DNA from: Deltaproteobacteria bacterium
Lineage (GTDB): Bacteria > UBA10199 > DSSB01 > JACPFA01
Direction of reading: 5' to 3'
Length of the DNA stretch: 64,000 bases
Assembly (NCBI GenBank): GCA_016183235.1
Contig: JACPFA010000027.1
Span: forward strand, 1-64,000
The position numbers were made by a program, and so were the translations under genes. The stretch's first letter is position 1; each line of letters starts with the position of its first letter. Of the stretch, positions 28,597-41,084 are shown piece after piece. The notes beneath the pieces were generated by a model. That model was not told where the DNA came from. It saw only the letters and a program-made list of their open reading frames with translations, and made no database searches.

Positions 28597-28724
28597 GGGG
28601 GACCTCTAAAAACGACCCATCTGCCGCGTTGCCCGCAAAGCCGCGATCCTCACGTATTTTCATATACGCTCCGGTCGCGTCTTTGCGGGCGCCTTGCATC
28701 TGGGCCCTTTTTAGAGGTCCCCCC
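28597..28724 (-). repeat. MITE-like element with 15 bp terminal inverted repeats, copy A
   Basis: About 127 bp bounded by ggggacctctaaaaa and its inverse tttttagaggtcccc. The inside is an imperfect palindrome (cccgcaaag...ctttgcggg). Copy B, in opposite orientation with only about three base differences, lies at 37343-37469 inside a gene. Copy A is in the gap upstream of the VapBC-like operon. Confidence 0.9.
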
Positions 28725-28737
28725 CCAGTTGACTTTT

Positions 28738-28755
28738 ATGCCATATATATGGCAT
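28738..28755 (+). promoter_or_regulatory. Perfect 18 bp palindrome, probable operator of the VapBC-like pair
   Basis: atgccatatatatggcat is exactly self-complementary and ends 9 bp before the antitoxin ATG (28765). Antitoxins with ribbon-helix-helix domains usually bind such sites to repress their operon. Confidence 0.6.
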
Positions 28756-28764
28756 ATTTACTTC

Positions 28765-29004
28765 ATGCAGAAGACAACTATTTATTTAGATGAAAGAGAG
28801 TTAAAACAACTCAAAATCCTTGCAGCTGAACATATAGAAGGCAGCGTGGCAAAACTCATTCGTAAGGCGGTGCGTCGGTTTGTTTCTGACATTTCTCATC
28901 AACGAGAATTGAAATTCCTTAAGAAAATACTTCAAAGCCCCCCCCGAAAAACTTCTTTTCGTGATGGGGTCCGTTATCAACGCTCGTTGCGCCGGGAATG
29001 GTGA
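28765..29004 (+). CDS. Ribbon-helix-helix antitoxin (VapB-like)
   Basis: 79 aa from MQKTTIYLDERELKQLK at 28765; the open frame extends upstream into the operator palindrome, which is unlikely to be translated. TTIYLDERELKQLKILA and SVAKLIRKAVRRFV fit a CopG/MetJ ribbon-helix-helix domain; the basic tail (RKTSFRDGVRYQRSLRREW) would contact the toxin. Its stop overlaps the toxin gene start. Confidence 0.75.
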   Translation: MQKTTIYLDERELKQLKILAAEHIEGSVAKLIRKAVRRFVSDISHQRELKFLKKILQSPPRKTSFRDGVRYQRSLRREW

Positions 29005-29387
29005 TGGTATCCTATTTATTAGATACTAATATCCTCATTGATCTTTGTGGGGGAAAACGAGGCAAATCATTTTTCCAAAAAATTTTAAAAGGTGAAGAAG
29101 CTCGAATAGCTACAAGTATCTTGTGCATTGCTGAATTCATGGCGGGGGCAGGCAGGTTCGAAGAGAAATTCCTGCGCCATTGGATTGATTCAGGAGAATT
29201 AGAAATTGTTTATTTTGATCAGCTAGAAGATGCTTATTTGGCTGCTAAACTGAGAAAAGAAAATCATCTAACTTTACCCGATGCATTGATTCTTAGCTGT
29301 GCGATAAGAGAAAAGATGCATTTGCTGACCTATGATGCAGACCTGCTTAGAAATGCTAGGCATTTTATTTCGACAAGTTCTCCCTAG
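28998..29387 (+). CDS. vapC: PIN-domain ribonuclease toxin (VapC-like)
   Basis: 129 aa PIN domain. Acidic residues that bind Mg2+ are visible: LLDTNILIDL near the start, AEFMAG (Glu), LPDALILSCAI and LLTYDADLL near the C-terminus. Such toxins cleave tRNA or rRNA when freed from antitoxin. Start is ATG 28998, or 29004 where TGATG couples to the antitoxin stop. A bidirectional hairpin follows. Confidence 0.88.
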   Translation: MVMVSYLLDTNILIDLCGGKRGKSFFQKILKGEEARIATSILCIAEFMAGAGRFEEKFLRHWIDSGELEIVYFDQLEDAYLAAKLRKENHLTLPDALILSCAIREKMHLLTYDADLLRNARHFISTSSP

Positions 29388-37057: not shown

Positions 37058-37073
37058 ATGGGCCACCCCCCAA

Positions 37074-37116
37074 TGTCATTGCGAGCGAGCCCCATTGGCG
37101 AGCGTGGCAATCTTCC
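37074..37116. repeat. 'tgtcattgcgagc' half-repeat
   Basis: tgtcattgcgagcgagcccc continuing to gcgtggcaatcttcc, followed through 'ttcatctgcaaatagagt' by the cacgtctt repeat. Same two-part arrangement as at 17380-17450 and 20418-20501. Confidence 0.8.
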
Positions 37117-37148
37117 ATTTTATTCTTCAATTCATCTGCAAATAGAGT

Positions 37149-37244: not shown

Positions 37245-37316
37245 AGTGATCCCCTGAATCTTCCCCATAAAAATTCTTACTGATTCCTATAGGTCCTTTC
37301 GGTTACAATAGCTACT

Positions 37317-38255
37317 ATGGGCACCTCTAATAACTTGGATTTGGGGGGACCTCTAAAAAGGGCCCAGATGCAAGGCGCCCGCAAAGACGCGACCGGAGCG
37401 TATATGGAAATACGTGAGGATCGTGGCTTTGCGGGCAACGCCGCAGATGGGTCGTTTTTAGAGGTCCCCTTAGTGGGGGCTGAACTCACTCGTGAGCACA
37501 CGCCTTATTTGCCTTTAACCCCTGAAGAGATTGCTCAAAGCGGCATTGCAGCCGTGGCGGCGGGGGCTTCTTTATTACACCTTCACGTCCGTGATGCTCA
37601 AGGCAAGCCGACGCTTGATTCTCAAGTGATCAGTCGAGTCATGGAACTCATTCGAAAGGATTGCCCTGAGGTTATTTTGCAAGTTTCTACGGGTGGTGCG
37701 GTGGGTGATCCTTATGAAACAAGAATGGGCGTGTTGGTGTGTAAGCCTGAGATGGCTTCTCTTACCACAGGCACAACTAATTTTGGTGACGAGGTTTTTT
37801 TAAATCCACGCCCCTTTGTTGAAAAATTAGCTGGGTTGATGCGAGATAAAAATATTAAACCCGAGCTAGAAATTTTTGATTTAAGCATGATGGAAGAGGG
37901 TTTAAGACTCATTGAAAAAGATTGGGTAAAAGAACCAGCTCATTTCCAATTTGTCTTAGGAGTGCCTGGTGCCCTCCAGGCTGCGTCAGAAAATTTAAAT
38001 TTATTGTTATCCCGATTACCTAAAAAAGCTACCTGGAGTGTAGCCGCGGTGGGGCGCCATCAATTTCCCATGGTAGAGCTTGCGATTCAAAAAGGGGGCC
38101 ACGTGCGAGTGGGAATGGAGGATAATATTTATTTGGAAAAAGGAGTGCTTGCTAAGAGTAATGCGGAATTGGTAGAAAAAGCCGCCATGATCATTAAACA
38201 GCAAGGTTTTGTTGTTGCTAAACCTGATCAAGCAAGGGAGATTCTGTCATTGTAG
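37317..38255 (+). CDS. BKACE family (3-keto-5-aminohexanoate cleavage enzyme-like) with a repeat-derived N-terminus
   Basis: 312 aa. From residue 51 it follows the DUF849/BKACE family: VPLVGAELTREHTPYLPLTPEEIA, metal-binding LLHLHVRD, LQVSTGGAVGD, GTTNFGDE, and ARVGMEDNIYLEKGVLA-like RVGMEDNIYLEKG. The family condenses beta-keto acids with acetyl-CoA; the substrate cannot be read. Residues ~9-51 are the in-frame translation of a 127 bp dispersed element (37343-37469), replacing the usual first strand (xxIITVAPVGAE). Starts possible at ATG 37317, ATG 37404 inside the element, or GTG 37473 after it. No good Shine-Dalgarno at any. Confidence 0.8.
   Translation: MGTSNNLDLGGPLKRAQMQGARKDATGAYMEIREDRGFAGNAADGSFLEVPLVGAELTREHTPYLPLTPEEIAQSGIAAVAAGASLLHLHVRDAQGKPTLDSQVISRVMELIRKDCPEVILQVSTGGAVGDPYETRMGVLVCKPEMASLTTGTTNFGDEVFLNPRPFVEKLAGLMRDKNIKPELEIFDLSMMEEGLRLIEKDWVKEPAHFQFVLGVPGALQAASENLNLLLSRLPKKATWSVAAVGRHQFPMVELAIQKGGHVRVGMEDNIYLEKGVLAKSNAELVEKAAMIIKQQGFVVAKPDQAREILSL
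37343..37469 (+). repeat. MITE-like element with 15 bp terminal inverted repeats, copy B, inside a gene
   Basis: ggggacctctaaaaa...tttttagaggtcccc with 125 of about 128 positions equal to the inverse of copy A (28597-28724). It is 127 bp, not a multiple of three, so it changed the reading frame at the 5' end of the BKACE gene. Confidence 0.9.
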
Positions 38256-38261
38256 GGTTGC

Positions 38262-38332
38262 TGTCATTGCGAGCTGCTTCTGTCATCCCCCGGCTTGACC
38301 GGGGGACCCATGATACCGAGCGTGGCAATCTC
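38262..38332. repeat. Nested tgtcat repeats
   Basis: Outer tgtcattgcgagctgcttc / ccgagcgtggcaatctc, inner element 38281-38315 (tgtcatcccccggcttgacc to gacccatgata). The following lipid-kinase frame extends into it. Confidence 0.8.
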
Positions 38333-38360
38333 GTCTTTTTATGATAAGGTCAACAAAAAT

Positions 38361-39284
38361 ATGTCTGGAATTGGAATTGTCTTAAATCCTTATTCTAAAT
38401 TGCATCGTAAAGACCCCGATAAAATGACTCGCATGAGTTACATTGTGGGGGATAAAGGCTCCTGTAAACAAACCTTAGATCTACAAGATTTGCGGCGAGT
38501 GGCTGAAGAATTTAAAACTCGTGATATCGATATTTTGGCGATAGCTGGCGGCGATGGCACGATCCATGTAGCTTTGACAGCCTTTATTAATGTTTATGGT
38601 GAAAAACCTCTGCCTAAAATTGCACTTCTCCGGGGCGGAACCATGAACACCATTTCCAATGGGATTAACAATCGAGGTTCCCCCGAAAAACTTTTGAGCA
38701 ACCTCATTCATCAATACCATGAAGATGTTGCCTTTGAAGAAATACAAATTGATTTAATGAAAGTTAATGACGAATACGGGTTTCTCTTTGGTTGCGGAAT
38801 GGTTTATCGATTTTTGGAACTCTACTATAAAGGCACGACTCCATCTCCCAAAAAGGCGGCATTATTATTAGCCCGCACCGCGGCCTCTTCTCTACTCAAT
38901 GGGCGTTTTGCCTGCGAGTTGTTTAAACGTTTTGATGTTGAAGTAACGGTAGATGGCAAAAAATGGGCTTTTAAAAATTATGTGACCCTAATGGCAGGTT
39001 CAGTTCCTAGTTTGGGTTTTGGTACCAAGGTTTTTTACAAGGCCATGCAACCGCGCATTTTTCATGGCATGGGGTTTTCGATGACTCCACGTACCATGGT
39101 GTGTGAATTACCCAAACTAGCTTTTGGTAAACCCTCCCATCATCCTGATCTTCTCGACGATGCCTTTCAAGAGATGGTTTTGGAATTTGGCGAACCTACC
39201 CCCTATTATCTTGATGGGGACATGTTAGAAGAAACAAAAATAGTTCGTATTTCTTTGGGGCCGCGGATTACGATCGTAAAATAG
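38361..39284 (+). CDS. Diacylglycerol kinase-family lipid kinase
   Basis: 307 aa from MSGIGIVLNPYSKLHRKDP (38361); the 22 upstream in-frame codons are repeat. Catalytic-domain motifs: GIVLNPYSK, ILAIAGGDGTIHVAL (GGDGT nucleotide loop, ~residue 70) and ALLRGGTMNTIS. The C-terminal beta-sandwich ends YYLDGDMLEETKIVRISLGP. Members phosphorylate diacylglycerol, sphingosine or other lipids at the membrane; the substrate cannot be read. Confidence 0.88.
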   Translation: MSGIGIVLNPYSKLHRKDPDKMTRMSYIVGDKGSCKQTLDLQDLRRVAEEFKTRDIDILAIAGGDGTIHVALTAFINVYGEKPLPKIALLRGGTMNTISNGINNRGSPEKLLSNLIHQYHEDVAFEEIQIDLMKVNDEYGFLFGCGMVYRFLELYYKGTTPSPKKAALLLARTAASSLLNGRFACELFKRFDVEVTVDGKKWAFKNYVTLMAGSVPSLGFGTKVFYKAMQPRIFHGMGFSMTPRTMVCELPKLAFGKPSHHPDLLDDAFQEMVLEFGEPTPYYLDGDMLEETKIVRISLGPRITIVK

Positions 39285-39299
39285 ATGTCATTGCGAGCA

Positions 39300-41084
39300 T
39301 CAGCGAAGCAATCTTTCATTCTTAAGATCTAATTGGGCCATCACCTTTTGCATATCTTCCCAAACCGGTTTTTTCATGGCGGGGTTTCGCAACAAAAAAG
39401 AAGGATGATAGGTTGCAAGCAGATGAATGCTTCCCGCAGGAATGTTAGTTTTATACCGCTGCTGATAGACTGCATTTGGCCATGGGTGAAAACTTCCACG
39501 GAGCATGCTAATTTTTGTGTCCGTAGCCAATAAGGTTTGTGCGGCAAAAGTGCCGAGGCAAACGATAACCTTCGGGCGAATGATTTCAATTTGATGATTT
39601 AAAAAGGGAGAACAGGTTTCGATTTCAATGGGTTCGGGGTTTCGATTATGGGGTGGGCGGCAATTATGTACAACCCCTGCTACAGTCACAAAATTGTGAG
39701 TTTCCTCGACATCGATACAATAAAAAGTTTTGTCGGTACTTCTGTGGTCAATTTGGCTAACTTCCACTTCATCATAAAGAGTTTCACGATCAAGTTGGGT
39801 AAACAAATGTTCATCATAAGGGATGTGTGACTCCACTTCCGGATGTAACTTATATCTCATAGAAGGACAGACATAGGGAGCTATCATTTTTGAGAACTTT
39901 TTTGTTTCATCAACATCAAAGAAAATACATCCTCTCCGCTCGTATCCTTCGATTCCTAAGTTTTTTAAACCAGTCAAAAGAATTTCAATATCACCAGCCG
40001 AAAAAGCGCAAGTTGCTATTTCTGCACTTGGTTGTCTCGGTGGCCGAATTCGCATATAGCCATCGTCCATAAACCAAAATGCGACCATCATCGGATTAAG
40101 ATCCTTAGACAAATAAGAAGGGACTTTTTTCTTTGGGTCATAAAAATCATTTTGGATTGTTCTCAAACTTCGATGGGCAAGTGTATGACACTGGATTACG
40201 GGATAGAGCTGATCAGAACCTGCAGCAACTTTGAGCTCATTGGTTGTACAACCCAACTCCCTTGCCAATAAACTAGCCTTAAATCGAGCATAGGCTTCTT
40301 GCCGCAAAGAGTGGGAAAAGGAAAAATAAGAATTGTAAGATGGAATATGACTGTCTCCCAACAAGGAACCATAAATCATGTTACGCAGTGTGGGTGATAA
40401 ACCTTGGCCTGTTGCAATCCGATCAGATTTTTTCAATTCCTGTACAGCAATGTGCCCTCTCTCTGTTAAAACTGGGTGATCTCCTGTTAGATAGATTGCA
40501 CTTTTAAAAGGGCCTGCATTTTTTGATGATTTATAACTAAGCTTATAAACGGATCGACCTGCAAGGGGTGAGGCATGCCATCCTATTACCCTCTTTGGTA
40601 CCAATTGTCCCTGCTGGTTCACAGACATCACGGTACCATTGTATTTTTGTTTTACAAGTCGTCCGATGCGTTCCCAAGAGCCATCTCCCAATTGTACCAT
40701 GGCATTATACTTTAAACATTTAACGACATTCCCAATGTAAACATTTTTTCGTTCTAGTCCCATGGCCTGAATGATTTTAGTGAGCAATTGGCCAGATCGC
40801 CCAACAAAGGGCAGGCCTTGGTGGTCTTCTTCTTCACCTGGGCCTTCTCCCACAAACATTAATTCGGCATGAGGATTTCCGTCACCGAAAACCAAGTTTG
40901 TCCTTTTGATATGCAGCGGGCAGCGGGTACAGTTTCCAATGTGTTTTTTTAAAGCTTCAAGGTCAAAGACTTCTGTTTTTTGTGGAGCTTGGTTAGTGGG
41001 CTCAAACTTGGGCAGATAAGCGTTGGGGACTTCTTCTTCCCCTGCTAATTTAAGGGCTTGCAGATAACTTTGAAATCGATTCAT
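39300..41084 (-). CDS. Family-4 uracil-DNA glycosylase interrupted by an intein
   Basis: 594 aa precursor. Residues 1-122 and 475-594 join into a 242 aa Fe-S uracil-DNA glycosylase that removes uracil from DNA. Visible motifs: first cysteine pair NCTRCPLH, catalytic [23 protein letters not shown], then after splicing [26 protein letters not shown] with the other two cysteines, [12 protein letters not shown] and [13 protein letters not shown]. The intein (residues 123-474) lies immediately before the third cluster cysteine, which is also the +1 splicing nucleophile, so no cluster can form until splicing. Monocistronic on the minus strand, flanked by repeats. Confidence 0.95.
   Translation of the reverse strand: [594 protein letters not shown]
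39663..40718 (-). mobile_element. Class 1 intein with LAGLIDADG homing endonuclease
   Basis: 352 residues. Block A begins [19 protein letters not shown] (Cys1 nucleophile). Block B has [15 protein letters not shown] (TxxH). Endonuclease motifs are [11 protein letters not shown] and [11 protein letters not shown]. C-terminal blocks are [15 protein letters not shown] and AGVVHN followed by Cys, giving the penultimate His, terminal Asn and +1 Cys of a standard splicing site. Both LAGLIDADG motifs keep an acidic residue, so the endonuclease may be active. Reading frame intact throughout. Confidence 0.95.

Follow-up and report, generated by a model that had tools for sequence, protein, structure and literature searches.

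The open reading frame at positions 37317–38255 (+ strand) of the window, that is, of the whole stretch of 64,000 nucleotides analysed here, encodes a BKACE (kce-type) enzyme, as judged from the frame itself, the Pfam BKACE family and the Kce relatives in the PDB, and its residues 2–51 are encoded by a dispersed repeat. This locus raises the question of how a mobile element came to supply the beginning of a conserved enzyme, and of whether the gene survived the event. A first-pass annotation had described a 127-bp element with terminal inverted repeats, present in two copies, A and B, the second of which would form the N-terminus of the enzyme, either by exaptation or in a recently broken gene.

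As described there, copies A (28598–28724, − strand) and B lie in opposite orientation and are 98% identical. Two copies, however, greatly understate the family: blastn searches combined with flank alignments revealed at least 43 clear copies in this 2.61-Mb metagenome-type draft genome (51 contigs, 98% complete), a lower bound counted among the matches listed, with up to 40 places scored per search. The best whole-genome matches (E about 1e-59) exclude a chance repeat. In addition, the 5′ boundary, first set at 37343, had to be moved outwards. The preceding 24 bp (37319–37342, + strand; GGGCACCTCTAATAACTTGGATTT, encoding GTSNNLDL), delimited by pattern search and alignment, also belong to the element, so that copy B is a full-length MITE-like element of 151 bp (37319–37469, + strand), as defined by the multiple alignment of copies and flanks and by the long form found in other families. 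Specifically, the 24-bp extension precedes the element in about 25 copies, perfectly in 7 of them, and element copies of other families in the class carry it as well; a pattern search allowing up to three mismatches retrieved it at 14 places in the genome, and the reversed control pattern at none. The alignment of copies assigns to copy B the outer repeats GGGCACCTCTAA and TTAGAGGTCCCC (+ strand). Copy A is the short form, without the extension, and is flanked by a CTGG duplication (blastn and flank alignment).

Throughout the family, copies range from 125 to 175 bp, the 175-bp variant carrying a 24-bp internal insert, and their alignment gives 12-bp terminal repeats with the outer consensus GGG[C/G]ACCTCTAA / TTAGAGGTCCCC. 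The ends are thus inverted repeats, as first annotated, but they are not set off from the interior: the element is nearly entirely palindromic, and the whole 127-bp core (37343–37469, + strand; from the blastn copies and the RNA fold) is one long palindrome with a predicted folding energy of −84.5 kcal/mol (z = −11.1). An exact 4-bp target duplication flanks 11 of 36 copies, against a mean of 1.3 and a maximum of 6 in shuffled controls; besides that of copy A, the duplications seen are TGAA, TTTA, CTTA, CCAT, TCAT, CACA, TTGA and CAAA. With terminal inverted repeats, a fixed-length 4-bp duplication, small size, many copies and no transposase of its own, the element family is a MITE by structure. 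Related copies were found in 18 of 59 related genomes, and the long form, with target duplications, also occurs in other families of the class at 74–84% identity (e.g., L163, L167 and L185). No Rfam family covers the element.

Two of the six reading frames of the element are open, which is the level expected by chance (P = 0.3 by resampling); we therefore rejected its open frame as a signal of selection. A search of the genome for a partner transposase returned none. With regard to an IS5/IS4-type partner, PF13586 was unmatched, and the single DDE_Tnp_1 (PF01609) gene found lacks the ends of the element; a solo copy of the element's 5′ end, at C14:22214, does not belong to an IS. The element recalls REP/REPIN sequences and their RAYT transposases in that it is palindromic and dispersed, has GGAG next to a hairpin and occurs in a genome that contains Y1/RAYT-type transposase-like genes, but it differs from them in its 4-bp target duplications. 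To our knowledge, RAYT/Y1 mobilisation does not yield target duplications; those of the present element therefore indicate a DDE transposase rather than RAYT/Y1.

Two sets of related sequences were also observed. The 30-bp apical hairpin ACCGGAGCGTATATGGAAATACGTGAGGAT, 97–100% conserved, also stands alone (L047 2989–3018; L173, L175): it lies within a different repeat and occurs in other families (G023, G009). The sequences at L043 2636–2714 and L052 2821–2925 are degenerate relatives whose ends (CTCAAAAATGCCC...) differ from those of the element; they are probably an older subfamily.

Within the BKACE gene, the entire stretch from MGTSNNLDL to SFLEVP is element-encoded except for the first two bases of the ATG at 37317–37319, whose AT comes from the flank and whose G is the first base of the element. 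The remaining native coding sequence extends from LVGAELT to the stop codon (37470–38255, + strand), as delimited by the alignment with 108 relatives, the tree and the model. In line with the first description, by which the resemblance to BKACE starts late in the gene, the Pfam BKACE match begins only at residue 48, with an E-value of 4.5e-93 and 312 bits against a curated cut-off of 24.8, and the match to Kce (2y7d) reaches 3.5e-69. All 108 relatives, drawn from a class-level set and from GTDB genomes, begin a few residues before strand 1 and carry no extension; an extension shared by relatives without the repeat, which would have spoken against an element-supplied N-terminus, is thus found in none of them. 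One sequence (L125), whose script-assigned start lay a long way upstream because the reading frame was a merged one, was excluded from later steps.

The end of the element occupies the place of the first strand, as had been proposed, but as a replacement it is poorer than the proposal implied. The relatives show the pattern [IL][TS]xA-x-x-G in strand 1, and within the order the orthologous proteins have M..PVILTCALVGAELT or MFGPIIITCALVGAELT; here, the last codons of the element give FLEVP ahead of LVGAELT, which places ExP where the family has TxA. Of the 58 columns that are nearly invariant in the class-level set, the kce protein deviates in 4; 2 of these deviations, a T replaced by E and an A replaced by P, are element-encoded. 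This missing feature lowers the confidence that the enzyme works, not that it descends from Kce. With Kce the protein shares the family, the fold (TM 0.93 overall to 2y7e in an AlphaFold2 model), the Zn-binding HxH (HLHVRD) and the substrate Glu of the GAE motif, both aligned with those of Kce, and, in its relatives, the kal/kam synteny; it differs in that its N-terminus and strand 1 are element-encoded and in that the gene no longer lies beside kal. The role of the GAE-motif Glu14 in Kce is known (PMC10470551). The same model places residues 48–51 as strand 1 and gives the first 40 residues low confidence (pLDDT 45–62); the placing of strand 1 lends weak support, since the alignment of relatives, all of which have this strand, forces the register. 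The enzyme may still work, provided that the protein is made and folds, as we infer.

In several relatives the genes, named here by sequence resemblance, follow the order kamE-kal-kce-DGK, and the diacylglycerol-kinase-like gene (DGK) lies directly downstream of BKACE in L010–L012, L014–L016, L018, L020 and L021. At the present locus kce and DGK (38295–39284, + strand; identified by resemblance and synteny) are still together, and kal and kamE lie on contig C9, where another type of palindromic repeat comes after them. The separation of kal from kce may predate the insertion, since L014, L016, L018 and L020 show it too.

Copy B has no target duplication (CTAT on the left, TTAG on the right), and the native kce 5′ codons stand beside 0 of 46 element copies, on either side; these codons have therefore been deleted and not merely exchanged. 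Taken together, the two observations make an insertion plus a one-sided deletion likely. In addition, copy B is 98–100% identical to other copies, so that the insertion looks recent. Specifically, a DDE-type MITE (151 bp, 4-bp duplications) would have landed at the 5′ end of a kce-type BKACE gene. Starting from the right end of the element and reaching into the gene, a deletion would then have removed the native start codon and roughly 8–10 codons of the first strand, and the single open frame of the element on the + strand would have been fused in frame to the remaining enzyme as a substitute N-terminus. Translation from the internal ATG at 37404 would give MEIREDRGFAGNAADGSFLEVP-LVGAELT..., with the last residues of the element at the place of strand 1. 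The sequence of events, insertion and then deletion, is our reconstruction, and we regard the account as a whole as somewhat probable rather than secure. The earlier argument that a 127-bp insertion, not being a multiple of three, had shifted the frame does not apply, as the native start codon is gone and only the right junction sets the frame. An empty site was sought and found in none of the searched genomes, the nearest of which belongs to another family of the order (63% protein identity); a scan of genome contigs yielded no match above 61%.

Two further candidates were examined and rejected. The upstream sequence VTIA (37303–37313) is in frame, resembles strand 1 and might have been the displaced native strand, but as a four-residue match with no start codon at about 37250–37316 it was set aside as unproven. 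Likewise, for an exchange of flanks between copy B and another copy there was a single weak cross-match of 4 bp (CTAT, in L056), at which the 5′ end of the gene was absent.

Comparison of other genes with their relatives shows that kce is not the only predicted coding sequence joined to the element. In ptsN (contig C13, L157 3936–4773) the element copy, which breaks off at TTTTTA, continues into the gene in the frame seen in kce: 29 of 29 ptsN relatives have exactly MK[IL], MKM or M[HR]L ahead of the part that they share with it, and here the ...GSFL of the element stands instead. Past the junction, a start candidate in frame is first met twelve residues on, as a TTG, and translation of ptsN almost certainly begins inside the element, probably at the ATG with a GGAG site equivalent to that at 37404. 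In the relatives inspected, hpf lies directly upstream of ptsN, preceded by rpoN where the locus extends; here rpoN is followed by 13 bp, the element and ptsN, with hpf missing between them. The only homologue found of the ribosome hibernation factor HPF is on C33 (L048 2001–2478), next to cysD and directly before another element copy, a position that hints at element-mediated relocation.

At the opposite end of a gene, the native stop codon of uvrD (contig C42, L056 2709–2867) has given way to a copy truncated on its 5′ side: in 23 of 23 relatives the protein stops no more than a few residues from NLTILG, and here about 50 element residues follow, again in the kce frame. Checked against relatives, the same element thus lies in the same frame of at least three conserved predicted genes, kce, ptsN and uvrD. 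In this genome, a YCF48-like protein (L071) also ends in the element in this frame. The way in which such C-terminal fusions come to notice is biased, as a long tail arises in the open frame alone, and the two N-terminal fusions together are no proof of selection, because chance would put each of them in frame in one case out of three. As a separate observation, a second, unrelated dispersed repeat (SVIANPSADLSLRGQPAEAIS...LAMTEG), which matches many other places in the genome, lies in frame at residues ~560–600 of uvrD, between the helicase and the tudor domain.

These fusions bear on the explanation that competes most seriously with the in-frame fusion, namely that kce was recently broken: start codon and strand 1 would have been destroyed, the in-frame reading would be luck (about 1 in 3), and the ORF would be a young pseudogene. 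The conserved T and A of strand 1 are now E and P, a proline thereby entering the strand, and the start signal at 37317 is weak, but ptsN and uvrD carry the same kind of fusion without decay. The other 260 codons contain no frameshift, no stop and no accelerated change, and the branch of the kce protein in the tree (0.41, versus 0.33 for L012 and 0.42 for L014) indicates neither decay nor acceleration; the element is young, however, and an intact core would also be expected of a freshly dead gene. A second BKACE paralogue is present at C27:87153–87971, yet it is just 38% identical, and the relatives too retain both. The pathway partners kam and kal are also retained. All together, we consider a broken gene unlikely, if a serious contender.

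If the enzyme is made, three start codons come into question on the + strand. The ATG at the flank/element junction (37317–37319; GFAGNAADGSFLEVPLVGAELTR) has a weak site by sequence and anti-SD energy (−2.4 kcal/mol). It is preceded by a TTACAAT −10 motif, and a leaderless start like that of L014 was considered, but −10-like motifs are only weakly enriched before starts in this genome (6% versus 3%). The second, at 37395–37406, combines GGAG (37395–37398) with the ATG at 37404–37406 five nucleotides further on (−5.8 kcal/mol), and would give MEIREDR; that this ATG sits in the apical loop of a very stable predicted hairpin speaks against it. The third pairs the GAGGT of the element end (37461–37465) with the native GTG at 37473 (37461–37475; −6.5 kcal/mol). 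For comparison, the median anti-SD energies in this genome are −3.7 for the first ATGs of long ORFs and −1.9 for internal ATGs. We prefer the ATG at 37404, identified from the fold and the anti-SD energy, because its equivalent is the best remaining candidate in ptsN, and it is most likely the start of kce translation. Since ptsN is able to start only inside the same element, translation from the element becomes more likely in kce as well.

Carried further, these signals might make the element a portable translation-initiation module that rescues genes, such as kce and ptsN, which lost their start codon to an adjacent deletion, a tentative reading to which we give rather little credence. Its design would consist of GGAG in an internal hairpin loop, AUG in the apical loop, a frame open to the 3′ end and outward-facing GAGGT at the ends, a scheme we hold just as loosely. 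If this reading were true, the genome would repeatedly gain new N-termini from a MITE.

Alternatively, the element could be a noncoding 5′ leader, with translation starting at GTG 37473 by means of the terminal GAGGT. This GAGGT lies 7 nt before the GTG and has the best anti-SD energy of the candidates, but the product would be an enzyme without strand 1, or an inactive one, as it would miss the first strand of the (beta/alpha)8 barrel, which all 108 relatives have. Outward GAGGT does stand at the element termini, with an ATG following closely after several copies (e.g., L070, L047 and L059), yet ptsN has no start codon downstream near its junction, so that a leader would be no general solution; we judge it very unlikely in kce. 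Weakest of all, and highly improbable, is an assembly artefact, in which a short-read assembler joined unrelated flanks through the 151-bp repeat: the 51-contig draft with at least 43 repeat copies, the lack of a target duplication at copy B and the missing 5′ codons would fit it, but a misjoin should leave the 5′ end of the gene at another copy, which 0 of 46 have, and at ptsN and uvrD the junction falls inside the element, as that of a repeat-mediated misjoin would not, which makes misassembly unlikely at these two genes.

A MITE engaged in in-frame protein fusions is apparently a new case of a known kind. Rickettsia palindromic elements are palindromic repeats of about 150 bp that sit in frame within genes for unrelated proteins, which they lengthen by a peptide of about 50 residues (PMC10969869). 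The present element resembles them in size, in palindromic structure and in its in-frame position in unrelated genes (kce, ptsN and uvrD). Unlike it, the Rickettsia elements, as described in PMC10969869, interrupt genes and bring their own open frame with them, whereas the present element replaces gene ends (start codon plus strand 1, or stop codon) with a flanking deletion and is no more open than chance would make it. The likeness, drawn from descriptions, is one of ways of working and not of membership. The Chunjie MITE of Geobacter uraniireducens is likewise short and non-coding, with terminal inverted repeats, target duplications, many copies, size variants and no transposase of its own, and differs in size, judged from a review's description of Chunjie. 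The significance of the present case is that, in a lineage distant from Rickettsia, at least three conserved genes are joined in one and the same frame to a single family of elements, and that each of these genes can be checked against relatives. The element takes the place of a core barrel strand in kce and of the start codon in ptsN; if the proteins are made, they offer a direct test of how far conserved folds and translation starts tolerate mobile DNA.

Several minor observations concern the surroundings of the copies. Beside copy A, positions 28729–29387 hold an antitoxin/PIN-toxin-like pair, and a PIN gene in L040 seems to draw its start codon from another element copy. In L041, L047, L059 and L070 (contigs C11, C37, C42 and C21), copies end a few bases before a gene start, with GAGGT at ribosome-binding-site distance. 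Downstream of DGK, a uracil-DNA-glycosylase-like gene (39300–41084) contains an in-frame intein-like stretch (CLKYNAMVQLGDGS... to HN|C RPPHNRNPEP), an insert absent from its relative in L021. Finally, another dispersed repeat (TGTCATTGCGAGC...GCGTGGCAATC) flanks the BKACE gene at 37061–37130 and 38258–38335.
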